A stretch of DNA of 28,330 nt from the IMG/VR virus record IMGVR_UViG_3300011113_000536, positions 1 through 28,330 of that record. The stretch is one strand, 5' to 3'. The notes below the pieces were generated by a model. The model saw only the letters and a program-made list of their open reading frames with translations. It was not told the DNA's origin and did no database searches. Position 1 is the stretch's first letter; each line of letters begins with the position of its first letter. This document shows positions 4,135 to 18,253 of the stretch, in pieces. The stretch is from a virus. Both the position numbers and the translations under genes were made by a program.

Positions 4135-4140
4135 CCTCCT
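4135..4140 (-). promoter_or_regulatory. Strong SD (AGGAGG) that decides the dUTPase start
   Basis: On the minus strand AGGAGG overlaps the gp45 stop codon (CTAGGAGG) and stands four bases before GTG at 4130. It favours the GTG over the upstream ATG at 4163 and suggests stop-start coupling with the clamp gene. Confidence 0.7.
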
Positions 4141-4849
4141 AGTTTTGTAACATTACTAACCAATATGTTGATTCAAAATCAGCTCCGGAAAATTCAATAC
4201 GAGATAATCCGTCAGGTGATACATGTAATTTACCAGAATCGCCTCTGTTTGCAACAAGTACTTCTTTTAATTTATCTGCTGAGAAACAAACCGGATCCAT
4301 ATCTGCACCTGGTGTATTTCCTACTTCAAATGTAATGTTATCTGCATTAACCGTTGAATAATTGATAATAAATTTAATTACGCCACCTTTAACTTGTACT
4401 GCAAAATTTTTAGCATCAGGTAATGCATTCTTTGCTTTGATAAACTTGCTAACAAATTCTTCGTTAACAGGAATTTCAATAACATAATCAGGCTCTGCAT
4501 TGATTGTTGGAACTGCTGGGATAACTGTTGTATCAGCTAACATAAATGTTGCTTTAGTGCTACCCTCTGCAATTTCCATTGCATAATTCTTACCTGCTGC
4601 ATCTTTTACTATAATATTGATGTTTTCACCTAATGCACCTAGCATTTTGTTTAATGCTCCGGTATGATTGATACCTAATTCGCCTTTCATGAAAGGTGTT
4701 GTTTTCCAATTGATTTTTCCTACAATTGTTTGATCTACATCGATCAATTCACAATTAACACCAGTTTCATTTTCTTTTAATTTAACCGCTTCGCAGTTTC
4801 CTGCTAAATAATAACGATTAATAAATGATTGTAACTTGCTTTTTTCCAT
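4139..4849 (-). CDS. 45: DNA polymerase sliding clamp (gp45-like)
   Basis: 236 residues, close to T4 gp45 (228). The start MEKSKLQSFINRYYLAG is followed by a long run of alternating beta strands and helices without catalytic motifs, as expected for the trimeric ring that tethers gp43. The middle has the strand-rich segments VNCELIDVDQTIVGKI and VQVKGGVIKFIIN, and it ends in a hydrophobic strand, TYWLVMLQN. The call rests on this pattern and on the adjoining clamp-loader genes. The SD is CAGGATAA. The gene starts 11 bases after the transglycosylase stop. Confidence 0.85.
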   Translation of the reverse strand: MEKSKLQSFINRYYLAGNCEAVKLKENETGVNCELIDVDQTIVGKINWKTTPFMKGELGINHTGALNKMLGALGENINIIVKDAAGKNYAMEIAEGSTKATFMLADTTVIPAVPTINAEPDYVIEIPVNEEFVSKFIKAKNALPDAKNFAVQVKGGVIKFIINYSTVNADNITFEVGNTPGADMDPVCFSADKLKEVLVANRGDSGKLHVSPDGLSRIEFSGADFESTYWLVMLQN

Positions 4850-4860
4850 GTTTATCCTGA

Positions 4861-6120
4861 TTAAAATTTAAAGAATTTGTTAAAGTTTTCTGCATCGGTC
4901 GTAGAAATACTACTGCCACCGAATTTTTTATATGTTTTAATATATTTTTCGTAAATTTGCGGAGCTGCTTCTGGGTCTGCAAACATTTCATGTAATGAAA
5001 GAATCACATCGTATAAGTCTCTAGGAATCATTGTTTCTAATAATTCAACGTGACTATCAACTAGTTGATTTATTTCCTGTGCGGCTCTTACATATAAATG
5101 TGTATTATGAACAACCATCCTAGGCATAGCTTCTTGTGAATATCTATCTAATCCTTCTGGTGTTTTTCCACCTAATAATTCATAGGTAAAGTCTTTACAA
5201 GCCGGACAATGCAACGAACAAGGAACATGTTGAGTTAAATCGATTGGAACTTCACCCGTCTTACCTTGTTTAATATGTGACTTTCTTCGGTATTCTGCAT
5301 TCTTCGGAAAATACAATTCAGAAAAAGATTGAGTCTTGTAATTTGTTGAGTGCAAATATGTTCCGAATACTGGATATTGGCCTGGAGATGATGAATCTGT
5401 TGTAATATAAATTCTATTACCTGTATGTTGATTCATTAACTTTTGTAAGGTTGCTAAAATAAAGAAATCTGATATCTTAGAAATACCTAATAAATGGACA
5501 TATTCTAATCGTTTATTTTCAAACTCTCTATTCTTTAACATCAATGAAACCGCAAACATAAAGTCTACTAACTTCTGCGGGCCTCCAATTGCCCAACCTT
5601 GAAAATCAAAATGCTTAAATTTGTGATACCACCATGTATACTCTTCAGAATTTGATCCTTGCAACATGTTCAAGAATTTTGTCTTACCTGATTGATGTTT
5701 TTCAAACCAAGCAAAGTTATCAAAACTAATATCAGCACATAGAGCAAATTGATTCTTATACTTTGTCTTAGGTGGAATATCTAAATTTGCTGCAACATCA
5801 CTATTAGCTTCTAACCAATGAAAGATTTTTTCTCGTAATTCATTGCTATATGGCAAAGCTCCAGTTGCTATCTGATAACCTCCAGAATCTCCAAATACTA
5901 ATACATCTTTTTCTAAACCCATTTGCTGTCTAAAGTCCATTTTTTTGTAATGATGTCCTGCAGTCACTAGGAAATATGGATGTCTCCAATCTGCCGGATA
6001 TCTTGAATCAAAAAACTTGACAGGGTTACCATCTTCAAACTTCATATCCTTTTTGAAAGCAGATACCATGGAACCTGCGGACAATGATGGAAAGTATATG
6101 AATCTTTTATTTTCGCTCAT
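4861..6120 (-). CDS. dpdA: DpdA-like DNA (7-deaza)guanine transglycosylase, TGT family
   Basis: 419 residues related to tRNA-guanine transglycosylases. FGDSGGYQI carries the general-base Asp (D78), and ITTDSSSPG carries a candidate nucleophile, D242. A zinc site follows: C301, C305 and C308, then HNTH at 338-341. The stretch WAIGGPQKL (about 176-184) matches the substrate-binding Gly-Gly region of TGTs. In phages, DpdA-type members exchange guanine in DNA for a 7-deazaguanine. The same window holds FolE, QueD and QueE, which make that base, so DNA rather than tRNA is the likely substrate. It overlaps the glycosyltransferase gene upstream by 14 bases. The exact base inserted is not readable from sequence. 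Confidence 0.82.
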   Translation of the reverse strand: MSENKRFIYFPSLSAGSMVSAFKKDMKFEDGNPVKFFDSRYPADWRHPYFLVTAGHHYKKMDFRQQMGLEKDVLVFGDSGGYQIATGALPYSNELREKIFHWLEANSDVAANLDIPPKTKYKNQFALCADISFDNFAWFEKHQSGKTKFLNMLQGSNSEEYTWWYHKFKHFDFQGWAIGGPQKLVDFMFAVSLMLKNREFENKRLEYVHLLGISKISDFFILATLQKLMNQHTGNRIYITTDSSSPGQYPVFGTYLHSTNYKTQSFSELYFPKNAEYRRKSHIKQGKTGEVPIDLTQHVPCSLHCPACKDFTYELLGGKTPEGLDRYSQEAMPRMVVHNTHLYVRAAQEINQLVDSHVELLETMIPRDLYDVILSLHEMFADPEAAPQIYEKYIKTYKKFGGSSISTTDAENFNKFFKF

Positions 6121-7141
6121 CTTTTCTATATCCTTTTAAATAATTGATTAATTGTTTTGCTGAAAAAAAGTTATCATGTAATTTTGAAACTAAATGTGCA
6201 ACTTGTTCTGATAAATCTTGTTTTTCGTATTCTAATATTGCCTTAGCTGCATCTGCTACAGAATCAGCACGTTTAAACATTGGTGTATACATTTCTGTAT
6301 ATGATAATCGATTTGGAACTAACGGGCATGCACCTGCACACGCTGCTTCATACATTGAAATACCTAAAGTTTCTTGATCTGCAAATGAAACTGCAAAGCG
6401 TGCACGTTGAAGTAATTCATGATATTCTGTTTTGCTTAAATTCATTTCCATTGCAACGCAAAATTGATAATGTTGCAAATCTGGATGCTTTGCTAAACGC
6501 TGAAATAAATCTAAACGCTTTTCCGGTGCAATACGATGTGGAAATACTATTATATTTTCTTTCTTTGCCCACATTTTAGGTGCAATCATATCTTTTGTAT
6601 ATTCCATGGGCCAGCCCGTTCTATCAAAGGTTGAATTAAAATATATTGGATATGTTTTACTCATTAAATTAAAATGTGCTGCAGTTGCTAACCAATTATG
6701 GTCAAATGCACCAATAAAGGCTTGCTCAGCGTGTCTAATCCATGGTTTATCTCCAACGAGACGACCTAAAAAGTCATTTGGGTCATATGAACCCGCGTGC
6801 CAAAGTCCGTGCGTTACAACGGGAATATTTAGGAGTTCACTCATGTATTTAACATTGATAATACCAGGATGCCAAGCATCGGTGAATATGATATGATCTC
6901 CTGCCTTAATATCACCACGCGTAAACAATTCTGCTAAACGATGCGTTTGTGTAGCCTTATACATATTAGTGCCACCAAAATTCAAAAAGGCACCTGGTGT
7001 TACTGCTTCTGGAATATCTAAATCACCTTCGATAACTTCTACATCAAAGCCATTGTCTCTAAGCAATTGCGGCACGTGCCATTTCCATTCGCAAGTATAA
7101 CGCGTTGGAACTGATTCTAAATCTACTAAAAATATTTTCAT
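6107..7141 (-). CDS. GT-B (GT4-like) glycosyltransferase
   Basis: 344 residues with a two-Rossmann GT-B layout. The N-terminal strand is MKIFLVDLES; a linker leads to the second domain with NIIVFPHRIAPEKRLDLF, the usual nucleotide-sugar half. The E-X7-E motif is seen in QETLGISMYEAACAG. The acceptor and sugar are unknown. It overlaps the dpdA-like gene downstream and follows a PTPS-fold gene, so it may decorate the modified DNA base, as T4 glucosyltransferases do for hydroxymethylcytosine; that is inference. An ATG at 7165 would add eight residues, but MKIFLV at 7141 is the natural domain start, one base after the previous stop. Confidence 0.8.
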   Translation of the reverse strand: MKIFLVDLESVPTRYTCEWKWHVPQLLRDNGFDVEVIEGDLDIPEAVTPGAFLNFGGTNMYKATQTHRLAELFTRGDIKAGDHIIFTDAWHPGIINVKYMSELLNIPVVTHGLWHAGSYDPNDFLGRLVGDKPWIRHAEQAFIGAFDHNWLATAAHFNLMSKTYPIYFNSTFDRTGWPMEYTKDMIAPKMWAKKENIIVFPHRIAPEKRLDLFQRLAKHPDLQHYQFCVAMEMNLSKTEYHELLQRARFAVSFADQETLGISMYEAACAGACPLVPNRLSYTEMYTPMFKRADSVADAAKAILEYEKQDLSEQVAHLVSKLHDNFFSAKQLINYLKGYRKDERK

Positions 7142-7142
7142 A

Positions 7143-7493
7143 CTATCTTTCAATGATTGCACCATTTTCCCAATCTTCGTAAACTTCTACTTTATATAAA
7201 CTAGGAAATGATTCTAATAACCATTCTCCAATCATTTCACAAGACATTGACCCAAATTCTAATACATTAGTTTCGGTACCGGTAAATCCGATTCGCAGAG
7301 CTTTTTGAATCTTACGATTTAACAAAATAAACTCTTCATCTCTATCAGTATGTGTTACCGTTGCATAACAACGGAATCCAAACATATGACGATGTCTATC
7401 TGATAAGAATGCTACTTCTGGAAAAACTTCTTTAGCATCAGGCCAATTATGAAATCCTTCAATACTAAATGTTACTACTACACTATACTTCAT
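7143..7493 (-). CDS. PTPS/QueD-fold (T-fold) protein lacking the catalytic Cys
   Basis: 116 residues. The N-terminal strand MKYSVVVTFSIEGFHNWPDA gives one His, and FLSDRHRHMFGFR gives an HXH pair, matching the three-His zinc site of 6-pyruvoyl/6-carboxytetrahydropterin synthases. The C-terminal SMSCEMIGEWLLESF and VEVYEDWENGA match the family's helix and final strand. The Cys that precedes the HXH in QueD is absent (Leu aligns there), so normal QueD chemistry is doubtful. I recognise this as a conserved phage/actinobacterial-type family of unknown role. The start at 7493 fits the domain edge; 7514 is possible. It overlaps the upstream gene by 11 bases. Confidence 0.6.
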   Translation of the reverse strand: MKYSVVVTFSIEGFHNWPDAKEVFPEVAFLSDRHRHMFGFRCYATVTHTDRDEEFILLNRKIQKALRIGFTGTETNVLEFGSMSCEMIGEWLLESFPSLYKVEVYEDWENGAIIER

Positions 7494-7935
7494 GGCGATC
7501 GAATTTATAATCATCTGGGTTTACTGATTGCATATTATGAACGGTTGTGCAATACAATTTATAATCTCCATAAACTACTTTGATACTATCCGTTTGCTTT
7601 AATAATGCAGCATCTTTGCAATCTAACATTAACAAGATATGCGCTCGAATTCTAATCATCGGCGGAACGTGTTCTAACATACCAGGCGTTACTTCAATTG
7701 AAACAAATTGAGTATCTGATATCATGTTGAAAATGTTTTGCCAATTAAAGTCTTTGCTTTTACTGTCATTAACTAATTGCTCAGTAGCTGGAGAACAAAT
7801 ATAAATGTGTGGCACGGGTTTCATTCGTTCCGTACCATAAACTAATGGAGCGAAATCTGCAATGAAACATGTTTCGATATCCGTAAAGCGTCCTTCAACT
7901 TCTTTACCATACCATATACTTTTGAAACCAATCAT
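7483..7935 (-). CDS. Conserved hypothetical protein, first gene of the dpdA transcription unit
   Basis: 150 residues, not recognised. It appears to be an alpha/beta protein, with strands at VPHIYICSP and FVSIEVTPG and a hydrophobic segment at IRAHILLML that is too short and charged-flanked to be a convincing membrane span. It is the first gene after the strong terminator at 7980-8007 and has its own promoter at 7941-7969. It therefore heads the unit containing the PTPS-fold protein, glycosyltransferase and DpdA-like enzyme, and may serve the same pathway. There is no SD; the predicted transcription start lies within one or two bases of the ATG. Confidence 0.6.
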   Translation of the reverse strand: MIGFKSIWYGKEVEGRFTDIETCFIADFAPLVYGTERMKPVPHIYICSPATEQLVNDSKSKDFNWQNIFNMISDTQFVSIEVTPGMLEHVPPMIRIRAHILLMLDCKDAALLKQTDSIKVVYGDYKLYCTTVHNMQSVNPDDYKFDRHEV

Positions 7936-7940
7936 AACTT

Positions 7941-7969
7941 ATTATATAAATGTTTTTTAATATTTCCAA
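7941..7969 (-). promoter_or_regulatory. Sigma70-like promoter for the dpdA unit
   Basis: On the minus strand TTGGAA (7964-7969), 17 bp, TATAAT (7941-7946, a perfect -10). The box sits five bases before the ATG at 7935, so the transcript would start on or next to the start codon. It lies directly downstream of a terminator, as expected for a unit boundary. Confidence 0.65.
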
Positions 7970-7979
7970 ATCAAACAGT

Positions 7980-8007
7980 AAAAAAGTGCTAACATTTCTG
8001 CTAGCAC
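7980..8007 (-). terminator. Strong intrinsic terminator
   Basis: On the minus strand an 8-bp stem (GTGCTAGC pairing with GTTAGCAC, one G-T pair) with a six-base loop, followed by six Ts. It lies 16 bases after the stop of the 142-aa gene at 8023-8451. It separates the polymerase-side unit from the dpdA/clamp unit. Confidence 0.88.
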
Positions 8008-8022
8008 CTTATACTAATTTTT

Positions 8023-8451
8023 TTATTGTTCAACTACAATGTAGCCACCATATTCGCCGCGGTCTCTATCTGCTCGTTCTAATTCATCACTAATTTTATC
8101 TGCAATTTCATCTGAAATAGTTACTTTAAATTCAACAATACCTTCGTTTGGATCATATGATCGTTCAATCGAAGTTTTATCGAAGCCATATCTGTTAAAT
8201 ACATTAATAGCAACTCTATCCATGAATTTATTAGTACCAGAAAATAAAATCATTTGCTTATTAGCAGATCCTTCGGTATCATCTGGATATCCGTTATTAT
8301 TTGAATCAGTATCTCTTAAATTGCCTGTTTTTGGATCGCGATTAGCACCCGAATCGAATCCTAGTTTATTTTCTAAATCTTGCAAATTTGTTTCAGATAA
8401 ATTCTTAGTTCCAAATCTACGCATATTTTCTGCTAATATATTTTTTTTCAT
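8023..8451 (-). CDS. Small acidic protein with Asp-rich Ca-binding-like loop; possible head-associated tag
   Basis: 142 residues. It starts MKKNILAENMRRFGTKNL, an opening I associate with virion proteins of marine T4-like phages. Around residues 46-58 is DTDSNNNGYPDD, which resembles the DxDxNG Ca-binding loops of thrombospondin-3/dockerin-type repeats. The C-terminal half (RVAINVFNRYGFD, then EGIVEFKVTIS and an acidic helix) looks like a small alpha/beta domain. It has its own promoter (8466-8494) and SD (AGGTAAAAT) and is followed by a strong terminator, so it is a single-gene unit. The function is unknown. Confidence 0.6.
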   Translation of the reverse strand: MKKNILAENMRRFGTKNLSETNLQDLENKLGFDSGANRDPKTGNLRDTDSNNNGYPDDTEGSANKQMILFSGTNKFMDRVAINVFNRYGFDKTSIERSYDPNEGIVEFKVTISDEIADKISDELERADRDRGEYGGYIVVEQ

Positions 8452-8465
8452 ATTTTACCTAATTT

Positions 8466-8494
8466 AATATAAATATTGGCAAAAAAAAAATCAA
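8466..8494 (-). promoter_or_regulatory. Sigma70-like promoter before the 142-aa gene
   Basis: On the minus strand TTGATT (8489-8494), 17 bp containing a T10 run, TATATT (8466-8471). The predicted +1 near 8459 leaves an eight-base leader. The -35 box overlaps the last codons of the polymerase gene. Confidence 0.55.
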
Positions 8495-11007
8495 TTACCG
8501 AAACTAAAAAACTTCGAAACATTATTATTATCAGGAAATGACGACCAATTCATTGCTGCATAGAAATCATCAAGTTTATTCTTCAATTCCTTTTCAAAGA
8601 TTTTATTGCGATCTATGTATTGTTCTACAAAGTCTGTGATAACTTTTGGATCTTGATAACCTCGAAGTGCCATGGTATCAAAACCAAATGGATTATCCGA
8701 TAAGTATGCCCATTTTACTTTTTCGCCATCTGTAATAGGTTCAATGTCTCGAATACCATTTGATACAAGTAAATCATTGAAATTGATTGCTGATTTAACA
8801 TGAGCTGGGGTTCCTGATAAGTATCCTGTAAATGGCTTTCTTTTCTTGGTATATTTTGATATTTCTTTCACTCCGGAGTTCTTCATTACATTTAATACCG
8901 GAGAATTTTTTAATCCGGACTTGAACGTATGAATCATATCAGTTGTTGCAGTTTTATCACGTTCTTTAAGAATATTCCAAAGTGTTTCTTTCATTATCTT
9001 TTTGAAATCTTCTGGGAAACTTGATCTAACAACATCTAATCCTTTGATGTCTAATTTATCCGTAGGTTTACCTTCTTTGAATATAACCCATTGTGCATAG
9101 CGTTTCTTGGCAATCCACAAACCAGATTTTGCAACATATTCTTGTTTAATTTGCCAACGATGCGTTTTAGTATTATGAAATACTTCTGCATATCTATCGT
9201 ACATTCGATTTACGAGACTTTGAACTTCTGATGCAATTGCATTGGTTTGTGCAATCATGAACTTTTCATCTGTTTCATCAAATCCAGGAAAACGTTTTGC
9301 AATAAGTGGCAATGAACTAACAAAGGTTGAATCTGTATCTGTATAAAATGCAAATTCAGCTTTTCCTTTGGTTGCATTGATAAAATGATCTTGTCCTATT
9401 TCTTTTGCATAATGATTGTTAATAACCTTTGCAGAAAATTTAATTACGCTTTGACCTGTTGCTGTGATTGCACCTGCATTATCTAAATCGTGGAATCGGA
9501 ATGTTTTAAGTCCTAATACACCATAAAATGAATTGAGCAATACTTTTTGTGTATTTTGTAAGGCGTCATAAAATTTATAATCTTCAGATCCTACTTCATA
9601 TTCATCACGTTTATTTTTATACGTAACACGTTCATCAAACCATTTTGCTAATATAGTTGGTAAGAATCCTTTGATGTCTGTTCTATAAACTGCACCGTTA
9701 CTTGCAACAGTATACTCATTATCAGATAGCCACGCTTTAACATGTTGTGCATATGTACCATCAGTAAAAGTTACTTGTTGTGGCTCTGATTTTAATAAAC
9801 ATTCTTCATCCCAATTTTGAATTACTCCTACTTTAGTTTCCGGAGAAATATTCAAACTCATGATGATGCTAGGATATAGTGAAGTTAAATCTAAGTCATA
9901 TATCCATTTGTATAAACCAGGTACCGGATCTTTTACATATGCGCCAGCTAATGCATCTGCTTCCGTTTCTTCTTCAACGAATCGAAATTGTTTATTTGGA
10001 GCTACAAGTCCATTTCGTTTCAAATCAACTATTGCAGCACCATCTAGATATTTAGATGCATAATAAACATCTTCATATGCAACGTGACCTTTATGGCATA
10101 TGGTTCGTGCTAAATTTAACAATTGTGTCTTTTCATCTAACTCATAAACCAAGTTAACGTCAACCATGTTATATTCAACAAATTTTCGAATATCGGTTGC
10201 AAATAATTGATTCAAATCACCTTCATATTCAACTTTACCTCGACCCAATTCTGTCTTTGCTACAGTATCTAAACGGTAATTTGGTAATTCTGTATATGTA
10301 AACTTTTTATAAAGTGTCAGGTAATCTAAACTAGATACACCGAATATTTTGTATCGTTCTCTGTTTTTATTCCATTCAACAATACCAGCAGGAGAAAGTT
10401 TCTTAATTGCTTGTGCGCCTAATACTTTTTTGATTCTGTTAACGAGATATGGAACGTCATAATTATCAATGTTCCATCCTGTAATTACTGTCGGCTGAAC
10501 TGCTGCAAATATGTTTATGAAACGTGTTAACATGTCCGCTTCGGACCTAAATATTTCTACTTCATAATCCGTTTCTTTGAAGCCTTTTGTTGTTACACGA
10601 CGTTCTTCATCTAATAGCAATACGCGTCTATCTTGTCCGGCTTTATCAAAATATGCTATTGATGTAATACGTAATCGAGCATCTTCTGGTGTTGAATATC
10701 CGTTTTCATCACGTTCTGATTCAATATCAAAAAAGAAATCTCTATGTCCTTTTGACGGCGTATCAGATTCATAATACAAATCAATTAGAGTTCTAACTTC
10801 TTCATTGAGATCTGATTCATATGCCGTTCTATTGTCTTTGTGATTGCCTGGAACTCTAGACAATCGCGTTCCATCTAATGAAACGCAATCTCCGTCTGAA
10901 TCTGGTAAATATGCATATGGTTGAAATGGAAATTTCTGATGACCTAATTCATCATCAAACACGTGCATTACGTTATTTTTCTTATCATATGCTATATTTT
11001 GATACAT
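8491..11007 (-). CDS. 43: Family B replicative DNA polymerase (gp43-like)
   Basis: 838 residues, slightly shorter than T4 gp43 (898). The 3'-5' exonuclease motifs are intact: FFFDIESE (D94, E96), NIDNYD (179-184) and YNMVD (279-283). Polymerase motif A is DLTSLYPSI (373-381), motif B is QKVLLNSFYGVLG (487-499), and motif C is YTDTDS (555-560). The C-terminal end SKFFSFGN resembles the clamp-binding tail of T4-like polymerases. No intron or intein interrupts it. The SD AAAAGG precedes the ATG, 11 bases after the HNH endonuclease stop. It should replicate the genome with gp45, gp44/62, gp41 and gp32. Confidence 0.97.
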   Translation of the reverse strand: MYQNIAYDKKNNVMHVFDDELGHQKFPFQPYAYLPDSDGDCVSLDGTRLSRVPGNHKDNRTAYESDLNEEVRTLIDLYYESDTPSKGHRDFFFDIESERDENGYSTPEDARLRITSIAYFDKAGQDRRVLLLDEERRVTTKGFKETDYEVEIFRSEADMLTRFINIFAAVQPTVITGWNIDNYDVPYLVNRIKKVLGAQAIKKLSPAGIVEWNKNRERYKIFGVSSLDYLTLYKKFTYTELPNYRLDTVAKTELGRGKVEYEGDLNQLFATDIRKFVEYNMVDVNLVYELDEKTQLLNLARTICHKGHVAYEDVYYASKYLDGAAIVDLKRNGLVAPNKQFRFVEEETEADALAGAYVKDPVPGLYKWIYDLDLTSLYPSIIMSLNISPETKVGVIQNWDEECLLKSEPQQVTFTDGTYAQHVKAWLSDNEYTVASNGAVYRTDIKGFLPTILAKWFDERVTYKNKRDEYEVGSEDYKFYDALQNTQKVLLNSFYGVLGLKTFRFHDLDNAGAITATGQSVIKFSAKVINNHYAKEIGQDHFINATKGKAEFAFYTDTDSTFVSSLPLIAKRFPGFDETDEKFMIAQTNAIASEVQSLVNRMYDRYAEVFHNTKTHRWQIKQEYVAKSGLWIAKKRYAQWVIFKEGKPTDKLDIKGLDVVRSSFPEDFKKIMKETLWNILKERDKTATTDMIHTFKSGLKNSPVLNVMKNSGVKEISKYTKKRKPFTGYLSGTPAHVKSAINFNDLLVSNGIRDIEPITDGEKVKWAYLSDNPFGFDTMALRGYQDPKVITDFVEQYIDRNKIFEKELKNKLDDFYAAMNWSSFPDNNNVSKFFSFGN

Positions 11008-11018
11008 GTTAATCCTTT

Positions 11019-11486
11019 TTATTTTTTTAATTTACAATTGTTATTGTGCCATCTAGTTATATTTCCGATATCAGAAATAACATCGCAATATTGGCACTTA
11101 ATTCGTATAGAATTTAAACGAATTTTACTTTGTTTTTGTCTTGTTTCAGTTGAAACGATTTTATTACAATGCGTATGCTTAACTGCTTGACCATGATATT
11201 GTTTTATTCTATGATATTCATGTGATGAAATAATTAGTCCGGTTCGTTTAGTTACGCCATTAATCATTGCCCAAAGTGCATAACGTAATTTATTATTTTC
11301 TGGATAAATTTCACAAAGAAGTTTATGTGCTATGAAATGTTCTCTAGCTGTTAATTCGGCTATATTTTCTTTATTATTAGTTCCGCCCATACATTTAGGA
11401 ACAATATGATGTCGTTCTTTATATTCTGTTAATTTTCTAGTCTTTGATCTCATTATTAATTGATCGTATATTTTTTTGTAATTCAT
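11019..11486 (-). CDS. HNH homing endonuclease (free-standing)
   Basis: 155 residues. The HNH core is HHIVPKCMGGTNNKENIAELTAREHFIAHKLL (residues about 26-57; key HH, N, H), followed by a YALWAM helix. A C-terminal zinc-finger-like segment (IKCQYCDV then WHNNNCKLKK) probably helps bind DNA. It is a close paralogue of the enzyme at 22624-23244, sharing the N-terminus, HNH block and tail, but lacks the NUMOD3-like middle. It lies directly upstream of the polymerase gene, a common site for such elements in T4-like phages. The SD GGAG lies within the overlapping small ORF. Confidence 0.88.
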   Translation of the reverse strand: MNYKKIYDQLIMRSKTRKLTEYKERHHIVPKCMGGTNNKENIAELTAREHFIAHKLLCEIYPENNKLRYALWAMINGVTKRTGLIISSHEYHRIKQYHGQAVKHTHCNKIVSTETRQKQSKIRLNSIRIKCQYCDVISDIGNITRWHNNNCKLKK

Positions 11487-11607
11487 AGTATTTCTCCATT
11501 GTTTTTTTATTTATCTTCTCTTTGTTACGATAATAATACTCTTTAGCCCAAAGACGTTGTGCTTCAACTTTTTCTTGTTCTGTTTTGTATTTTTTTATTC
11601 GTCCCAT
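11437..11607 (-). CDS. Small basic ORF, 56 aa, upstream of and overlapping the HNH endonuclease
   Basis: Reading from ATG at 11607 to TAG at 11437 gives a Lys/Glu/Tyr-rich helical peptide opening MGRIKKYKTEQEKVEAQ, with the middle LWAKEYYYRNKEKINKK. This resembles basic helices common in small phage proteins and in the N-terminal parts of some phage HNH proteins. It overlaps the HNH start by 50 bases in another frame. No SD precedes the ATG. It may be a short DNA-binding partner, or a relic of a longer endonuclease. It fills most of the otherwise empty 161 bases between 11487 and 11647. Confidence 0.5.
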   Translation of the reverse strand: MGRIKKYKTEQEKVEAQRLWAKEYYYRNKEKINKKTMEKYYELQKNIRSINNEIKD

Positions 11608-11647
11608 TTAATATAAATATATAACTAAAAGAAAAAAACTAAAAGAA

Positions 11648-12049
11648 TTACTTAGTATTATTGACAATTTCAATTAACTTATCAAGGCATGCAAGTTCTG
11701 TTTCTTCATAGATTGCATAAACATAAATTTCACCCTCTTTATAGTCGGTTATTCTGTGTGGTCTAATCTCATAAATATATTTATTTTTTGTATATTCTTC
11801 AATCCAAGATTTTAGATTATACTTCTCTCTAAACCATCTAAATGCTTGTGAGAATGTTGGCTGTGATGTATATGTTGAACTATTGTAATTGACACCATTG
11901 AATTTTTGTTCATTTGTTCTCAAATCAGAACATCTCATAGGTGTACTGCAATTATCAAATGCAAATAAACAAGGTTCATCAAATCCAAGTTCTTTGAGTT
12001 TCACCGCCAACTCATAAGGTACAAATTCTTTTTCCATTCCTTGATACAT
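11648..12049 (-). CDS. Conserved phage protein of unknown function, 133 aa
   Basis: The segment EFVPYELAVKLKELGFDEPCLFAF, later PTFSQAFRWFREKYNL and a C-terminal CLDKLIEIV helix define a family I recognise from phages and prophages, without known function. No catalytic motif is evident. The ATG at 12049 overlaps the HPRT stop (TAATG) and has SD AAGG eight bases upstream. An internal ATG at 12037 is closer to where homologues often start (MEKEFVPYE), but its possible SD is too close. Confidence 0.7.
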   Translation of the reverse strand: MYQGMEKEFVPYELAVKLKELGFDEPCLFAFDNCSTPMRCSDLRTNEQKFNGVNYNSSTYTSQPTFSQAFRWFREKYNLKSWIEEYTKNKYIYEIRPHRITDYKEGEIYVYAIYEETELACLDKLIEIVNNTK

Positions 12050-12555
12050 TAATTAACCTTATATAAATCTTCTAAATTTCTTCCTACTCCGTTATTGTCT
12101 AATCCATAACCAGCTATCCATTCGTCTCCGATAACAAATCCACAAAAATTAGTTAGATCAACGCCGCCACCTCTACGAGTTAATGTAACAACTTTAACTT
12201 GTGCCGGAATATGACTATTAACCATGAACAATGCTTCTAATATAGTTGTGCCAGTATCGCAAATATCATCTACAATGTACACGTTGCGACCTTTAAGATC
12301 TAGTTCTAAACCTTTAATGATTTCTATACCTCCAGAATTATCTTGACCTTCATATGATTTCATTCTAATAAAGTCTGATTGTACATTGATTGGCATATTT
12401 CTAAGTAAGTCTGTATAAAACATATATGCACCATTGAGTATACAAATCATTACTGGTGGTAATGCATTACCTGTATTTACGTGATCTTCGGCAATACTTA
12501 ATGCCAATTGTTTTACTCTCAATTGGATGTCTTGTTTGTTAATAATAAGTTCCAT
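12049..12555 (-). CDS. hpt: Hypoxanthine(-guanine) phosphoribosyltransferase
   Basis: 168 residues. The PRPP-binding signature IVDDICDTGTT is near residues 95-105. The N-terminal region has ICILNGAYMFYTDLLR (family pattern LKGA..F..DL), and the C-terminus has GDEWIAGYGLD and YRNL-like GRNLEDLY, both typical of HPRT. The enzyme converts hypoxanthine or guanine plus PRPP to IMP or GMP. A possible specific role here is recycling the guanine released when the DpdA-like enzyme exchanges bases in DNA, and feeding the GTP used by FolE; that is inference. It overlaps the membrane-protein gene by 37 bases. Confidence 0.9.
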   Translation of the reverse strand: MELIINKQDIQLRVKQLALSIAEDHVNTGNALPPVMICILNGAYMFYTDLLRNMPINVQSDFIRMKSYEGQDNSGGIEIIKGLELDLKGRNVYIVDDICDTGTTILEALFMVNSHIPAQVKVVTLTRRGGGVDLTNFCGFVIGDEWIAGYGLDNNGVGRNLEDLYKVN

Positions 12556-12752
12556 ATTCCGTATAAATTTATTGCTATAATAATTAAACTAAGTACTAAA
12601 TGACTAAAATTTGCTATGAAAAAATCATACGTAATCCAACCTATATCTCCAATGATCCAAGAAATCATTGCATAGTTATGAAGGCGTTTTGCATTTAATA
12701 CATATCCTATTAGTACCAAAATAGTACTAATCCAACCTAATGTATCTACCAT
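12519..12752 (-). CDS. Small integral membrane protein, 77 aa
   Basis: Three hydrophobic spans are visible: about residues 4-21 (LGWISTILVLIGYVLNA), 28-47 (around MISWIIGDIGWITYDFF) and 50-70 (HLVLSLIIIAINLYGIW). Short loops and a Lys/Thr tail complete it. It resembles part of small phage/bacterial membrane proteins, perhaps PnuC-related, but I cannot assign transport. The ATG lies inside the GroES stop region (CCATGGTAG, seven-base overlap), so it is co-translated with the chaperonin. Confidence 0.65.
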   Translation of the reverse strand: MVDTLGWISTILVLIGYVLNAKRLHNYAMISWIIGDIGWITYDFFIANFSHLVLSLIIIAINLYGIWNLLLTNKTSN

Positions 12753-13048
12753 GGTAGTGAATTTACAAGACCTATTTCTGATTCTCTAATCAAATAATAA
12801 TTTACATCATCGATAACGATATTTTTATTTTCTCCTAAATTAGGTTTATGAATCAATACTATATCTCCGGACTTAACTGTCATTGGTATTGTATCTCCTG
12901 TCATAGTAAATAATCCAGGTCCCGTTGCAACAACGGTTGCTCGAGAAAATTGCATATCTCTATCAACTAAAATAATACCACTTTTTGTTTTTTCTGAAGT
13001 TTTTTCAACTTGAACTAATACTTGATCACCAATTGGTTTCCATTCCAT
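12746..13048 (-). CDS. GroES-like co-chaperonin (Cpn10; functional analogue of T4 gp31)
   Basis: 100 residues, the usual GroES length. The opening MEWKPIGDQVLVQVEK matches Cpn10 (xxPLxDRVLVK). The mobile loop EKTKSGIILV is present, then ATVVATGPG, and VKSGDIVLIHKP corresponds to the family's VKxGDxVLF strand. The end ISES-like REESEIG region appears as LIRESEIG. It should cap the host GroEL; in T4, gp31 with GroEL folds the capsid protein gp23. The SD AAAGGAAT lies upstream. It follows the thioredoxin gene by 15 bases. Confidence 0.9.
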   Translation of the reverse strand: MEWKPIGDQVLVQVEKTSEKTKSGIILVDRDMQFSRATVVATGPGLFTMTGDTIPMTVKSGDIVLIHKPNLGENKNIVIDDVNYYLIRESEIGLVNSLPW

Positions 13049-13063
13049 AACTTATTCCTTTTT

Positions 13064-13315
13064 TTATTTATTATATAATTCAATAACTGCATGTTTTGTT
13101 ACATTTGCTCCAACTAATTTACGTAATGCAACACCAGAACCATCAATTAAAATCACACATGGTATATTTTTTACATTGTATTTTTCTGTGGTGGCTGTAT
13201 TGGTATCAACATCGATAAATGAAATAGGAAGTTGATTGCTTAATTCTTGCATCTGTGGTCTTATGAATGTACACGGACCACACCACGTTGCTGTAAAATA
13301 CAATAATTTTTTCAT
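13064..13315 (-). CDS. Thioredoxin
   Basis: 83 residues, short for thioredoxin and similar to other minimal phage thioredoxins and glutaredoxins. The active site WCGPC (residues 11-15) follows MKKLLYFTAT. SFIDVDTNT and the cis-Pro segment NIPCVILIDG complete the fold. It is a likely electron donor to the class II ribonucleotide reductase at 18254-20110, whose C-terminal CX4C pair needs reduction. The SD is weak (ACGAGAT). The 52 bases upstream (13316-13367) hold no gene and no promoter I would defend. Confidence 0.93.
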   Translation of the reverse strand: MKKLLYFTATWCGPCTFIRPQMQELSNQLPISFIDVDTNTATTEKYNVKNIPCVILIDGSGVALRKLVGANVTKHAVIELYNK

Positions 13316-13367
13316 CGTATCTCGTAATTTATTTTAACGTCGCCAAACGTTGTTGTTATTATCCAAT

Positions 13368-13574
13368 TCATTTTTCTGCAGCTTGTTTTTTTGCTAATTC
13401 ATCTAATAACATATGGTATGTTTCATTTACGCCACTAACGCCATGATATACGTTTAAATTATGTACCATCATTTGACTTATTACTGATGATATAAGAATA
13501 TTATCATCAGCGTCTAAAATTTGAATTCTAATCTTAAGATTTTGTTCTTCTAATGGTTTTATTTGTTCTTCCAT
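13368..13574 (-). CDS. Hypothetical protein, 68 aa
   Basis: Not recognised. The N-terminus is acidic (MEEQIKPLEEQNLKI), followed by a strand-like IRIQILDADDN and an amphipathic body, ending in a Lys/Ala/Glu helix (LLDELAKKQAAEK). The good SD AAAGGA before the ATG and the tight fit between QueE and thioredoxin support a real gene. Confidence 0.6.
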   Translation of the reverse strand: MEEQIKPLEEQNLKIRIQILDADDNILISSVISQMMVHNLNVYHGVSGVNETYHMLLDELAKKQAAEK

Positions 13575-13600
13575 TTTTTCCTTTATTTTAAGTTGTTAGT

Positions 13601-14389
13601 TTACACGCCTCTTTTAGTATCATATGCAATAATATGATCCCTGCCTGTCATGTTATAACCATATTCGGCACACATTTCAAATACGATGGGATACATTTTG
13701 ATTAATTCTTCTCGGGTATCGCCTGCCGGCATAATGTATGTTTTTGATCTAGGAATATTCAATTTAACCCGGAATTCTTCAATTTCTTGTAAATTATATT
13801 CCGTACCATCCCATACTGGTTTGTAATGATAATCTGTATGAAACTCAATCATTTGTTTGATTGCTTCATAATTTAATCTAAATTTATTATGTTGCGTAAC
13901 CATTTTTTCATCCGTGATCGTCCCTTGCGGCGTAGGAGTACCCAGAACGGGAACGCTATTGCTAAACTTAGGACTAAGACTAATAAGCCCAATAGGATAA
14001 TCAGTCGCAATAAAATGTGAGCCTTCAGTTTCAATAGTGATAAGAATGCTTCTTTCATGTGCAAAGTGTGTTAATTCATTTACCAAAGCAGGATGCATTG
14101 TTGGAGCACCCCCTGTTAACATCATTTCTTTAATATGCGGATTTTCATCGTATATTTTTATGATGTCATTAAATGTAAATGTACCTTTTTCTGGATGTAT
14201 TGATGTGTACCAAGAATCACACCAACCACCTTCTCCAAAATAGCATCGGTGAGTGCAACCTGTAGTTCTAACTGCAATAGTAGGTCTGCCGAATCGAGAA
14301 CCTTCTGATTGCACGCATCTATACAATTCTACTATGGGTAATGTTTTGTTGTAATCTGTTATTCTTTTAGAAAGGGAGGTCATCGTCAT
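13601..14389 (-). CDS. queE: 7-carboxy-7-deazaguanine synthase (QueE), radical SAM
   Basis: 262 residues. QueE converts 6-carboxytetrahydropterin to 7-carboxy-7-deazaguanine. The substrate loop RCVQSEGSRFGRPT (about 24-37) is followed by the cluster cysteines C45, C49 and C57, then the SAM-binding MMLTGGAPTMHP and ETEGSHF. The cysteine spacing is CX3CX7C rather than the usual CX3CX2C, with FGEGG inserted before WCDS; I have seen similar insertions in phage QueE. The C-terminal PVWDG and YIMPAGDT segments match family strands. It overlaps the upstream gene by 23 bases. Starts at 14389 and 14383 are equally possible. Together with FolE and QueD it supplies the base for the DpdA-like enzyme. Confidence 0.9.
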   Translation of the reverse strand: MTMTSLSKRITDYNKTLPIVELYRCVQSEGSRFGRPTIAVRTTGCTHRCYFGEGGWCDSWYTSIHPEKGTFTFNDIIKIYDENPHIKEMMLTGGAPTMHPALVNELTHFAHERSILITIETEGSHFIATDYPIGLISLSPKFSNSVPVLGTPTPQGTITDEKMVTQHNKFRLNYEAIKQMIEFHTDYHYKPVWDGTEYNLQEIEEFRVKLNIPRSKTYIMPAGDTREELIKMYPIVFEMCAEYGYNMTGRDHIIAYDTKRGV

Positions 14390-14732
14390 CTTCTAATTTA
14401 GTTGGTACATTTAGTTGTTTAATCACAGCGTCAAATTTAGCTTCTAGATCTTGCAATCTTTGCTGCAATTTAAGTAATTCAGAACGTCTTACTAATGGCG
14501 TTCGATCTAATTCAGGATTTGTATTATTAGCAAAATATGAATCTAAGAATGATATCGGATATATTTGTACTTGAGTGTATTCTGGACGTTGTGCTTCTTT
14601 AGGTAGCATTCTCCATTTGATATCAACGCCTCGTTTTACAGCTTCTGCCGTTACTTCTCGTCCAATATTTGTACCACCAGAGCCTTTACCTAAATATTCA
14701 AAAAGTGATACATAAGTTTCATTATTCTCCAT
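14367..14732 (-). CDS. Conserved phage protein with an SSB-like acidic C-terminal tip
   Basis: 121 residues. The N-terminal half (YVSLFEYLGKGSGG, then IGREVTAEAV) and YPISFLDSYF belong to a phage family I recognise without known function. A Leu/Gln coiled-coil stretch follows (ELLKLQQRLQDLEAKF). The last residues are LEDDDDLPF, almost exactly the DDDIPF tip that bacterial SSB uses to recruit partner proteins. There is no evident OB fold. Binding to SSB partners or to phage replication proteins is inference. The start overlaps queD by 11 bases and the end overlaps queE by 23. Confidence 0.7.
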   Translation of the reverse strand: MENNETYVSLFEYLGKGSGGTNIGREVTAEAVKRGVDIKWRMLPKEAQRPEYTQVQIYPISFLDSYFANNTNPELDRTPLVRRSELLKLQQRLQDLEAKFDAVIKQLNVPTKLEDDDDLPF

Positions 14733-15192
14733 AACTTGCTGAGTTTCTTTCGTGTTCGTATACTTCTACTTTTATTGCTTTGACTCTACCTTCGGTTTCT
14801 TTTTCAAGGAATTCATTAATTACGCTGTATAAGTATTCTGCAAATCTTTCGCAACCTACTGCCGGTAAAACTCTTAATTGAATGATACCATCTGTATTCA
14901 TTTGTATAAATTGCTCTAAGTATGGATCATCTATTGCTACAATTGTAGTATGATCTAACAAATAAGCAAAATACTCTTTTGGAGCCATACCTTCAATTTT
15001 CGTTTTTGCTCTTTTCATTCCACCGAAATCAAATACCCAATTGCGATGATCTAAATCACCTTCGAACCATACTCGGAATGATACTGCATAACCATGGAGG
15101 AATTTGCAATGCGTGCCATCTGCTCGCCATTGACGGAAACATGCCGAGTAGCCGTCGAATAATTTTGTTGACTTAAATTTTGCCATTTTCAT
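14722..15192 (-). CDS. queD: 6-carboxytetrahydropterin synthase (QueD), phage type
   Basis: 156 residues. QueD turns dihydroneopterin triphosphate, the FolE product, into 6-carboxytetrahydropterin. The family pattern is visible: THCKFLHGYAVSF (the catalytic Cys and following LH), FDFGGMKRAK, LDHTTIV, VGCERFAEYLY and a final VEVYEHERNSASY. Compared with E. coli QueD, the first zinc His aligns with a Cys (YSACF), and the second His of HGH is Tyr, so the zinc site is altered. It still clearly belongs to the PTPS/QueD family. It lies between folE and queE, with translation coupling by overlaps on both sides. The start may be 15192 or 15186. Confidence 0.85.
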   Translation of the reverse strand: MKMAKFKSTKLFDGYSACFRQWRADGTHCKFLHGYAVSFRVWFEGDLDHRNWVFDFGGMKRAKTKIEGMAPKEYFAYLLDHTTIVAIDDPYLEQFIQMNTDGIIQLRVLPAVGCERFAEYLYSVINEFLEKETEGRVKAIKVEVYEHERNSASYGE

Positions 15193-15478
15193 TTGTTTTT
15201 TCTATCATTTCATAAGTTAATTCAAAAATATCCGGTTTACATGGATAAAATTCACCCTTCACTCCTTTGATTATATAATCACCAATAGAAGCTATATGTT
15301 CACCTTCTAGAGTTTTTATTGTAAGAGTATCTTTTTCACCAAAAAACAATACTTTATTTCCAAACTCACTAATCAACCATTCTGGTCTTTCAGATAGTAT
15401 CACTTGTCCCGATGTTGTGTCAAATCCATTGAATTGCACTGCTTCAATCTCTACTGGTTTTTTTCTATAAGTTGCCAT
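15173..15478 (-). CDS. Conserved phage protein (IKGVKGEFYPCKPDIF family)
   Basis: 101 residues. The opening MATYRKKPVEIEAVQF and the closing GDYIIKGVKGEFYPCKPDIFELTYE mark a very common small phage protein family whose function is unknown. It is probably a compact beta-rich domain. It starts directly after the folE stop (TAATATG) with SD AAAAGG inside folE, and it overlaps queD by 20 bases. It is therefore made with the deazaguanine enzymes, but the family is widespread in phages without that pathway, so a link is not implied. Confidence 0.8.
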   Translation of the reverse strand: MATYRKKPVEIEAVQFNGFDTTSGQVILSERPEWLISEFGNKVLFFGEKDTLTIKTLEGEHIASIGDYIIKGVKGEFYPCKPDIFELTYEMIEKTNENGKI

Positions 15479-15479
15479 A

Positions 15480-16181
15480 TTAATTGTAACCTTTTACGAA
15501 TTGATAAAATTCTGAACGGGCATTACCATCTTCTAAGAATGCTCCGGATAATTTAGCAGTCTTCATTGAAGCACCTCCATGCTTAACACCTCTACATTGC
15601 ACACAATTATGAGTTGCTTCAATCATAACTGCAACACCTTTATTGCGTTCAATAAGCTCATCTATTGCGTGATGAATTGCTACTGTCAATTGTTCTTGAA
15701 TTGCACCTCTTCTACCAAAATGCTCTACAACGCGATTCAATTTACTTAAACCAATAACATTGCTATTGTCGCCTGGAATATATGCAACATGGACGAGTCC
15801 GGAAATGGTTTGATGATGATGGCTACACATTGAAGTTAATGGGATGCCTCCTTCGAATACAATACCATCATAACCGTCACTAGGAAATGCTGTGATATCT
15901 GACATTGGTTCATATCGACCGGCCCATAAATCATTAACATATGCTTTTGCAACTCTGCGTGGAGTATCGGATGAATTTGGATCTGACTCCCATGTTACGC
16001 CTAATGCGGTTAAGAACTGACCGTAATGATATGCTGCTTTGTCAATTATTTCTTGTTTTTCTTCTCGTGTTAAACGAGCATCGGGGCCTTCTAAAGATTG
16101 TTTAACTGCTAATTGCATTGAAACGCCGTTAGCAAATCCAGGGTGCACTAATTCTAAATTTTTTCTTTGTTCTTGTGTCAT
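15480..16181 (-). CDS. folE: GTP cyclohydrolase I (FolE)
   Basis: 233 residues. FolE converts GTP to 7,8-dihydroneopterin triphosphate, the first step of both folate and 7-deazaguanine synthesis. Visible features are SDTPRRVAKAY, MCSHHHQTISG (zinc C119 and catalytic/zinc His 121-123), IGLSKLNRVVEHF, IQEQLTVAIHHAI and ATHNCVQCRGV (second zinc Cys and the substrate-binding CRG). The queD and queE genes downstream indicate that the product goes to a deazaguanine rather than folate. A good promoter at 16201-16228 precedes it, so folE probably heads this unit. Confidence 0.95.
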   Translation of the reverse strand: MTQEQRKNLELVHPGFANGVSMQLAVKQSLEGPDARLTREEKQEIIDKAAYHYGQFLTALGVTWESDPNSSDTPRRVAKAYVNDLWAGRYEPMSDITAFPSDGYDGIVFEGGIPLTSMCSHHHQTISGLVHVAYIPGDNSNVIGLSKLNRVVEHFGRRGAIQEQLTVAIHHAIDELIERNKGVAVMIEATHNCVQCRGVKHGGASMKTAKLSGAFLEDGNARSEFYQFVKGYN

Positions 16182-17235: not shown

Positions 17236-17454
17236 TTAATAAATATCATTTAATGAGGTATTACCTTTTTCGTGTTTAGGTTCATATGGACAATGTCGAC
17301 AACCGTTACCGCAACAGCTTCCTCTTCTTTTATGATATGATTCAGTCATTACTCGACGACCATCCTCCCAGTAAAAGTCCGTTGGAAGGAGCTTGTTTCC
17401 AAACTCCCTCACAAAGGCTTGTTGTATCCAATCTTTTGATGCTGGCTGTATCAT
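17236..17454 (-). CDS. Cys-rich DUF5522-like protein
   Basis: 72 residues. The central YHKRRGSCCGNGCRHCPY is the signature of the small DUF5522-type family (pattern T-x-x-YH-x-x-RGxCCGxGCRHCP), known from bacteria and eukaryotes without a settled function. Four to five cysteines suggest a bound metal or Fe-S cluster. The N-terminus (WIQQAFVREFGNKLLPTDFYWEDG) is helical then strand. The start overlaps the GIY-YIG stop (TAATG), so it is probably translated with the upstream endonuclease gene. Confidence 0.65.
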   Translation of the reverse strand: MIQPASKDWIQQAFVREFGNKLLPTDFYWEDGRRVMTESYHKRRGSCCGNGCRHCPYEPKHEKGNTSLNDIY

Positions 17455-18212
17455 TATTTTATCTCTTTTGTTATTTTTATTTTATATCCTTCATATGATA
17501 ATTTACGTTTTCTAGATGATTTTATAATAATATCTGTTTGTCCATTTCGTATTTCATCATTATTTTTCGAACATAATGGATATTCAGTTTTTAAATATCC
17601 TATACAATCATATCGTTTAACGAAATTCATATCAGTATCATATAAATATGCATACCCTTTCCATGTACTATTATTTGAACCTTTAGAATTTTTACTCCTT
17701 ATGGCACGTGCTTCTGGCGTATTACATATTTCTTTCATTATTCGTTTACGTTTAGCAATTATATCTGGGTTTTGATTTGCTCGATTGACGCCATCTTTAA
17801 CTTTTTTAGAATATTCTTCTGTTTGCCATAATCGTTTAGTATTTTCACTATGTTTTGTTCGATTGATATTATTCCAATATGATGATGCTTTTGATAATAG
17901 TTTTCTTGTTCTTTCTTGATCTTTTGCACAACGTAAACTAAACGTGTCGCCGCCTTCGCCTCCGATTGTTAAATTGTAACCTATAGATCTACATGTAGAA
18001 TTATAATATGCAATCCAAAATTTTTCTCGGTCACACATATGTTGTTCAGATTCGCAATATTCTATTATTACTTTTTCAAAATTTTCTCTACCATACTTAT
18101 TTATCGAACTATTTAAACGTTTACCAGAGCCTAAATATTTAGGATTATCGTGTTTATCTTTTCCGATATAAATTTTTCCGGTGATCAAATTAGTTGTTTT
18201 ATAAATAATCAT
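17454..18212 (-). CDS. GIY-YIG homing endonuclease
   Basis: 252 residues from the ATG at 18212. The GIY-YIG motif is split over MIIYKTTNLITGKIYIGK at the N-terminus (usual GIYxxxN...YIG form), with the family's second block KYLGSGKRLNSSINKYGRENF and the catalytic Glu in EKFWIAYYN. The linker has NUMOD3-like repeats (TKRLWQTEEYSKK, ANQNPDIIAKRK) and a C-terminal DNA-binding segment. A longer frame to 18269 has no SD and runs through the hairpin, so I reject it. The gene sits just after the ribonucleotide reductase. Its SD lies in the 3' arm of a strong hairpin, which should restrict its translation. Confidence 0.88.
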   Translation of the reverse strand: MIIYKTTNLITGKIYIGKDKHDNPKYLGSGKRLNSSINKYGRENFEKVIIEYCESEQHMCDREKFWIAYYNSTCRSIGYNLTIGGEGGDTFSLRCAKDQERTRKLLSKASSYWNNINRTKHSENTKRLWQTEEYSKKVKDGVNRANQNPDIIAKRKRIMKEICNTPEARAIRSKNSKGSNNSTWKGYAYLYDTDMNFVKRYDCIGYLKTEYPLCSKNNDEIRNGQTDIIIKSSRKRKLSYEGYKIKITKEIK

Positions 18213-18245
18213 AAAAAGCTCCTTATATAAATAAATATAAGGAGC
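18213..18245 (-). terminator. Terminator hairpin that also buries the SD of the GIY-YIG gene
   Basis: On the minus strand an 11-bp perfect stem, GCTCCTTATAT pairing with ATATAAGGAGC, has a TTATTT loop and is followed at once by five Ts and the ATG at 18212. The AAGGAG SD of the endonuclease is part of the 3' arm. The structure can stop transcription after the reductase gene and also block ribosome entry on read-through RNA. Confidence 0.85.
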
Positions 18246-18253
18246 CTGTGAAA

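Follow-up and report, generated by a model that had tools for sequence, protein, structure and literature searches.

What does a phage build from a set of 7-deazaguanine genes when QueC is not found among them? The question is raised by IMG/VR record IMGVR_UViG_3300011113_000536, a fragment of a freshwater phage genome that was analysed in its entirety (28,330 bases; hereafter the window). It encodes FolE, QueD, QueE and a transglycosylase with a predicted tRNA-guanine transglycosylase (TGT) fold. Two further genes, absent from the list of an earlier note on this DNA, best explain the locus: those of a small QueD-like protein, here called SM (7143-7514), and of a glycosyltransferase, here called GT (6107-7165). 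The reading favoured here, which we consider somewhat probable, is that a QueC-less module makes a 7-deazaguanine, exchanges it into DNA and then glycosylates it. All convincing genes of the window lie on the minus strand, and those assigned to the module are as follows.

15480-16181, minus strand: FolE, GTP cyclohydrolase I (PF01227, E 4.8e-44; phrog_2197, E 1.5e-61; CSHH motif)
14722-15192, minus strand: QueD, phage-type 6-carboxytetrahydropterin synthase (PF01242, E 1.2e-14; phrog_2389, E 2.7e-38)
13601-14389, minus strand: QueE, 7-carboxy-7-deazaguanine synthase, a radical SAM enzyme (phrog_2076, E 1.3e-46; CX3CX7C motif)
7143-7514, minus strand: SM, 123-aa T-fold (QueD-like) protein of phrog_17812 (AlphaFold2 model; residue conservation)
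6107-7165, minus strand: GT, GT4-type glycosyltransferase (PF00534, 27.2 bits, cut-off 26.4)
4861-6120, minus strand: predicted DpdA2-like transglycosylase of TGT fold (model; TGT structure matches; homology to the nt-1 DpdA2 candidate)

The three synthesis genes, placed at 13.6-16.2 kb by the earlier note, are clear by Pfam or PHROGs profile, and the chemistry of their families is established: FolE, QueD and QueE together convert GTP to 7-carboxy-7-deazaguanine. The window QueD retains the Cys and the Asp-His of the family, with HGH replaced by HGY, and 308 bases of the QueE gene are 79.5% identical to QueE of phage phiST. The enlarged cluster motif CX3CX7C was seen in 64 of the 117 QueE open reading frames (ORFs) found; another 52 fall outside the searched pattern, those inspected having a longer insert before a later Cys. 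The remaining three genes are tightly packed, SM lying directly upstream of GT with an overlap of 23 bases and GT directly upstream of the transglycosylase gene with an overlap of 14 bases.

Searches with the transglycosylase gave no match in Pfam or NCBIfam, and none between its sequence and solved structures. An AlphaFold2 model (pLDDT 85.6), for which 24 sequences of the window and of IMG/VR were used, was more informative: tRNA-guanine transglycosylases top all its matches (Foldseek 3.0e-9 to 2ash), and it aligns with human TGT 7nq4 over 311 residues (VIA-align Z 24.0, root-mean-square deviation (rmsd) 3.9 A). As modelled, the enzyme has the TGT fold expected of phage DpdA, here of the DpdA2 branch, which bears out the TGT-family enzyme noted earlier at 4.9-6.1 kb. 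Residues D78, S79, G80, G81, Q83, D114, H209 and D242 are invariant in 24/24 sequences, and a profile alignment with phage 9g-type DpdA (hhalign 90%) puts D78 at D72, H209 at H196 and D242 at D215. D78 and D242 presumably form the catalytic aspartate pair of the TGT family.

The closest link to a characterised phage is with Vibrio phage nt-1. According to the available part of the source, nt-1 DpdA2 was identified among genes flanking the preQ0 cluster, and dPreQ0 is the main modified nucleoside of nt-1 DNA, dG+ and dADG being present in smaller amounts (PMC6884629). The transglycosylase family profile matches nt-1 ORF390, which adjoins QueC, at E 1.2e-60 and 1.1e-54, and an hhalign comparison of four family members with ORF390 reached 98.6%; a profile is required to see this homology, plain BLASTP giving E 0.003 only. 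ORF390 was taken as the published DpdA2 by its position beside QueC rather than by accession. By sequence profile, then, the window transglycosylase is homologous to the DpdA2 candidate of nt-1, which supports the earlier proposal that the phage uses a DpdA-type enzyme in a 7-deazaguanine pathway. Vibrio phage 2.275.O has a member of the family too, close to QueF and QueC. Furthermore, in 39 of the 40 relatives' loci that have both, no more than 1 kb separates a clamp-like gene from the transglycosylase, and the Phosso member of this clamp-like family is annotated as a sliding clamp. The nt-1 homology and the clamp-like neighbour together point to DNA as the target. One locus (L130, 464-13261) holds three transglycosylase-family ORFs together with SM and GT.

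The model of SM (pLDDT 92) has its nearest match in QueD of E. coli (Foldseek 7.7e-7; VIA-align Z 12.5, 107 residues aligned, rmsd 2.1 A), and SM as predicted has the T-fold of QueD. By sequence, SM has only chance-level matches to solved structures, and its family, phrog_17812, is listed in PHROGs as of unknown function. Ten residues (H22, H41, H55, R58, E61, S91, C92, E93, E113 and D114) are invariant in 39 sequences, and H43 is kept in 38/39. When SM is aligned with QueD (hhalign 82.7%), H22, H41 and H43 coincide with the metal-ligand histidines, which makes them candidate ligands, and E113 coincides with the conserved Glu; the invariant F36-L37 stands at the position of the QueD Cys, and the Asp-His has no counterpart. 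The metal ligands and catalytic residues of QueD used here are those that we take to be correct for the family. SM as modelled is built on the QueD fold, and the QueD reaction is unlikely for it because the Cys and the Asp-His of QueD have no counterpart.

Two other roles for SM were considered and weakened. One was replacement of QueD, yet a QueD match is present in 14 of the 16 SM-carrying records, which were selected for having SM (one match reaching only 5.6e-5). The other was that SM and QueD are halves of a split active site, the window QueD having HGY while SM keeps its histidines; locus L121, with a canonical-type QueD (HGH) together with SM, weakens this idea of complementation. Cui et al. 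in 2023 reportedly described dCDG and dDG in phages, with a predicted decarboxylase, DpdL. SM could be the DpdL family; literature searches for DpdL, DpdA3 and dCDG returned only unrelated papers among the matches listed.

The wider distribution of SM may be recorded here. In one locus (L258, 9962-10894) SM shares one protein with a nucleotide pyrophosphohydrolase domain of the MazG type, as a fusion, and in phiST it adjoins MazG and an AAA_18 ATPase. It is rare in contigs of bacterial and archaeal genomes (27 loci, L250-L276), nearly all of which are metagenome bins and probably represent mis-binned phage contigs; one bacterial locus is in the contig of a named isolate, Aurantimonas sp. VKM B-3413.

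The QueC family (PF06508) was not found in the window, as the earlier note had also stated, and this is weak proof alone since the window is a fragment. It was likewise found in 0/15 related records, complete genomes such as those of PA5oct, Phosso, ACP17 and phiST included, with phage 9g as positive control (3.6e-58 in both QueC searches). The suggestion that QueC merely lies outside the window is contradicted by its absence from most relatives, complete ACP17, PA5oct and Phosso among them. Of a further 31 records, three (D479, G022, G019) had a weak QueC-like ORF over the cut-off and six more had one below it. The available part of one source warns of N-type pyrophosphatases, which are unrelated to QueC (PMC6884629); the three weak ORFs are not separable from these and were counted against universal absence. 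Conversely, SM was found in 0/10 QueC-bearing named phages, with seven SM-positive records as positive controls, and GT in one of the ten, PhiXhv-15. Acinetobacter phage record MD-2021a (L244) was excluded from this set as its genes look chromosomal, QueC being surrounded by sulfate transport genes, dapD and purL as in a bacterial chromosome. The QueC or Gat-QueC of the phage pathways to dPreQ0 and dG+ is lacking in the window. SM looks like a protein that takes QueC's place, because most related records are without QueC and the ten QueC-bearing phages are without SM; the three weak QueC-like ORFs are a caveat.

Do SM and GT belong to the pathway? GT and SM were each used on their own to retrieve distant loci from IMG/VR, with close relatives (L005-L118, L162-L196) set aside. 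Families were counted within about 10 kb, fragments included, and many loci are short, so that the counts are lower bounds. The 25 GT-drawn loci (≤55% identity) contained SM in 24, the transglycosylase in 21, QueE in 20, FolE in 17 and QueD in 2. Similarly, SM was recovered in 42 of the 43 SM-drawn loci (≤46% identity), the exception, L120, being a truncated gene of higher identity that escaped the profile; FolE was present in 28, QueE and GT in 24 each, the transglycosylase in 23 and QueD in 14. Control loci were drawn by the replicative polymerase, whose gene is near the module in the window. None of 60 distant control loci (≤34% identity, 693 kb) had the transglycosylase, GT, SM, FolE, QueD, QueE, QueC or 9g-type DpdA, the control loci being shorter than the GT-drawn ones (median 10.6 versus 16.2 kb), and 11 of 12 close polymerase-drawn loci had GT, SM and the transglycosylase.

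Moreover, GT adjoins SM or the transglycosylase in phages as unlike as ACP17, PA5oct, X1 and BUCT-ZZ01. In six loci (L121, L134, L256, L259, L262, L266) a phage-9g-type DpdA takes the place of the DpdA2-like enzyme next to GT and SM, the gene order in L121 and L256 being DpdA, SM, GT, QueD, QueE, FolE; two different DNA transglycosylases therefore accompany the same GT and SM. The pathway is split in the window, as had been noted before, but this is atypical, its genes lying within one cluster in ACP17, BUCT-ZZ01, L128 and L133. At least 524 GT and at least 587 SM places were confirmed in IMG/VR, where the module appears common. Among the 16 SM-carrying records, nine have the DpdA2-like transglycosylase and the same nine have GT (for BUCT-ZZ01, L207 and L209, taken from the locus hidden Markov models). 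The other seven (phiST, RHph_I1_18, Ahp1_CNU-2021, Bakedbeans, D479, MA9V-3 and Roos) gave neither GT nor a DpdA2-like transglycosylase by profile; in these the base must be inserted another way or by a transglycosylase that escapes the profiles. The earlier note allowed that the inserted base could be 7-carboxy-7-deazaguanine itself, or preQ0 or a derivative. An end product that is simply one of the first two is not supported: GT and a QueD-fold paralog go with the pathway in many phages that are not related to one another, which makes additional tailoring of the base more plausible.

The window GT has, by its Pfam profile match, the Glycos_transf_1 domain (PF00534) of GT4-type glycosyltransferases. 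The same profile gave 37.1 bits (3e-9) for the GT of L121 and 26.5 bits for that of BUCT-ZZ01. A GT profile of four sequences found no match among solved structures; one of 16 sequences matched the mannosyltransferase structure PDB 2f9f (E 1.9e-4). E265 and E273 are invariant in 4/4 members, and E273 in all 16; their spacing is that of what we take to be the EX7E motif of the GT4-type class.

The genes around GT were grouped by unsupervised clustering of 73 module loci, compared with 60 controls; the module loci were picked for GT (73/73 by construction) and include some near-identical pairs. UDP-glucose/GDP-mannose dehydrogenases occur in 15/73 module loci, Gfo/Idh oxidoreductases in 15/73 versus 0/60 controls, zinc alcohol dehydrogenases and HIT proteins in 16/73 versus 0/60 each, and cytidylyltransferases in 8/73 versus 2/60. 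For example, in L208 and L209 GT is followed without a gap by a UDP-glucose/GDP-mannose dehydrogenase gene and then by FolE. A cytidylyltransferase that also has a mannose-phosphate-isomerase domain, as a fusion, stands between SM and GT in L124, and in L125 Gfo/Idh and alcohol dehydrogenase genes lie beside GT. Such sugar-nucleotide genes beside GT are the best evidence that it uses an activated sugar in this pathway. The sugar probably differs between phages, because some relatives carry their own sugar-nucleotide enzymes.

A family without assigned function, typified by ASD50402 of ACP17 (132 aa, no Pfam or PHROGs match), was found in 35/73 module loci (L003 6320-6718 and 34 others) versus 0/60 controls. 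In 28 of the 35 it is no more than 300 bases away from a module gene; the family is a further candidate member of the pathway. In the QueC-bearing Xanthomonas phage PhiXhv-15 (L242, 6753-10839), Gat-QueC, a PIG-L deacetylase, a related glycosyltransferase and a Gfo/Idh oxidoreductase stand in a row, which may represent another way, dependent on QueC, of making a deazaguanine that bears a sugar.

Put together, the proposed pathway would run as follows. FolE, QueD and QueE would convert GTP to 7-carboxy-7-deazaguanine, and SM would change the C7 substituent in QueC's stead. Removal of the carboxyl by metal-assisted decarboxylation is our first guess for SM, because its three histidines and Glu would hold a purine-like acid, and because dDG and the decarboxylase DpdL have reportedly been described for phages. 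The DpdA2-like transglycosylase would then swap the base for guanine in DNA, near the replication machinery, and GT would move a sugar from a nucleotide-sugar onto the inserted base, in the manner of T4. If the carboxyl is kept, the product could be a sugar ester; if it is removed, the sugar could be joined by a carbon-carbon bond or at another position.

Several points weigh against this reading. What is observed is folds and gene linkage, and from them we infer the reaction of SM, the DNA target, the sugar and its acceptor. After decarboxylation by SM, C7 would offer no obvious oxygen or nitrogen for a sugar, so that SM would have some other reaction or the sugar would be bonded in an uncommon way. 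The Pfam match of the window GT is marginal, and the UDP-sugar dehydrogenase family is also present in 3/60 control loci. No sugar-nucleotide gene was seen among the window genes looked at, and the phage would therefore draw on nucleotide-sugars of its host. SM occurs in phages with neither GT nor the DpdA2-like transglycosylase, so that SM and GT need not share a pathway in every phage, and in Phosso the transglycosylase is about 170 kb from GT. Finally, with three QueC-like ORFs over the cut-off the absence of QueC is not universal, and hosts may supply it.

The alternative that survives best, a real though unlikely one, is that the DNA carries a plain QueC-less 7-deazaguanine, either 7-carboxy-7-deazaguanine or 7-deazaguanine decarboxylated by SM, and that GT acts elsewhere, for instance on host surface glycans. 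FolE, QueD and QueE would suffice for the former base, Cui et al. reportedly described both bases in phages, the seven phages that have SM without GT would be accommodated, and a QueC-less phage carrying CDG has been proposed in the case of Bipper, as given in the available part of the source (PMC6884629). The position of GT argues against this, since it adjoins SM or the transglycosylase in the four unlike phages named above and keeps company with 9g-type DpdA as well.

It is improbable that host QueC turns phage 7-carboxy-7-deazaguanine into preQ0, which the transglycosylase then inserts. QueC is widespread enough for this, being over the cut-off in 12/14 bacterial and archaeal control genomes as well as in the three related records with QueC-like ORFs, and the related DpdA2 of nt-1 works where the DNA carries mainly dPreQ0, as far as the available part of the source goes (PMC6884629). 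Host QueC would, however, have to match the pace of the phage FolE, QueD and QueE, and SM, absent from 10/10 QueC-bearing phages, would be left without a role.

A tRNA target, with the cluster making a glycosylated queuosine-like base that tunes translation, seems very improbable. The top structural matches of the transglycosylase are indeed tRNA enzymes, and mannosyl- and galactosyl-queuosine occur in animal tRNA according to the available part of the source (PMC12518689), but the nearest characterised phage homolog is nt-1 DpdA2, 9g-type DpdA is swapped into the module, and the clamp-like gene adjoins in nearly all loci with both. It is just as hard to credit that the cluster is a general DNA-modification island in which GT sugars another hypermodified base such as a 5-hydroxymethylpyrimidine. 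In its favour, hydroxymethylcytosine is the most familiar substrate of the glycosyltransferases that act on phage DNA; against it, the recurrent set around GT is FolE, QueE, SM and the transglycosylase, and no hydroxymethylase stood out, none having been sought by name.

The favoured reading, a QueC-less module that ends in glycosylation, leaves a few other features of the window to be described.

4139-4849, minus strand: weak member of the sliding-clamp-like family, a neighbour not counted in the pathway (profile E 2.3e-6)
12049-12555, minus strand: phosphoribosyltransferase, a speculative pathway member (PF00156, E 2.6e-19)
7983-8010, minus strand: terminator-like hairpin upstream of SM, GT and the transglycosylase (12 pairs, 4 G-C, T-rich tail)

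A PHROGs search with the 4139-4849 protein gave no match of its own. The phosphoribosyltransferase could, speculatively, salvage the guanine set free by base exchange. Phosphoribosyltransferases lie near the module in 31/73 loci versus 0/60 controls, and the window protein falls outside that 31-locus cluster. The hairpin (8010-7983) and a promoter-like site at 7969-7941 part SM, GT and the transglycosylase from the upstream genes. These two sites lend weak support to the two transcription units claimed earlier, but neither kind is commoner in the region than in shuffled sequence, terminator-like sites numbering 3 in 13 kb versus 4.9 in shuffles. The window also contains homing endonuclease genes at 11019-11486 (phrog_655) and 17454-18269 (phrog_314, also GIY-YIG type phrog_5123), a gene at 22624-23244 whose start resembles, by eye, that of the first of these, and at 55-459 a YspA/cpYpsA-related SLOG-family protein (PF10686).

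Sugars on phage bases are known for derivatives of cytosine and thymine, and phage 7-deazaguanines are known without sugar. If the proposal is true, a module joining the two would represent a new class of DNA hypermodification and a new disguise for viral DNA, and it offers a candidate function for SM (phrog_17812). Should SM be a decarboxylase, the sugar may be carbon-carbon joined at C7, a bond for which we know of no counterpart in DNA. No description of a glycosylated 7-deazaguanine in DNA was found in the literature searched, subscription papers lying outside the search, and an earlier description is possible. Isolates that carry the module include PA5oct-like phages of Pseudomonas aeruginosa (host PAO1), Paride being one of them, the Acidovorax phage ACP17, and BUCT-ZZ01, which infects Synechococcus elongatus PCC 7942. 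The broader proposal, that many tailed phages carry glycosylated 7-deazaguanine in their DNA by way of FolE, QueD, QueE, SM, a transglycosylase of either DpdA2 or 9g type and a GT of the GT4 type, without QueC and with a sugar that varies by lineage, is one that we regard as evenly balanced.

Compared with known systems, the window resembles phage 9g and Vibrio phage nt-1, as described in the available part of the source, in having FolE, QueD, QueE and a TGT-fold transglycosylase (PMC6884629). It differs from both in lacking QueC and in the added SM and GT, and its product would therefore not be the dPreQ0 or dG+ that the known route yields. The dCDG and dDG phages reportedly have QueC-independent 7-deazaguanines as well, and a glycosyltransferase step is not known from them. 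Glucosylation of hydroxymethylcytosine in T4 works alike in that a phage glycosyltransferase finishes the base modification; there the base is cytosine rather than deazaguanine, and the acceptor hydroxyl is made at the nucleotide level and not by base exchange. In Stenotrophomonas phage Ps15, the queuosine region ORF135-141 holds ORF137, annotated as myo-inositol-1-phosphate synthase in the available part of its report (PMC9025141), which is possibly another tailoring step. Mannosyl- and galactosyl-queuosine also place a sugar on a 7-deazaguanine nucleoside, although in tRNA and on the cyclopentene ring of queuosine, with no kinship of their enzymes to GT claimed here, as far as the available text of the source extends (PMC12518689). 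Finally, the CmoX system, according to the accessible part of its description (PMC12783734), differs from the module in base (cytosine), in chemistry (amide) and in its unrelated genes, and resembles the proposal in that its carboxymethylcytosine makes a base carboxyl a possible handle for hypermodification.

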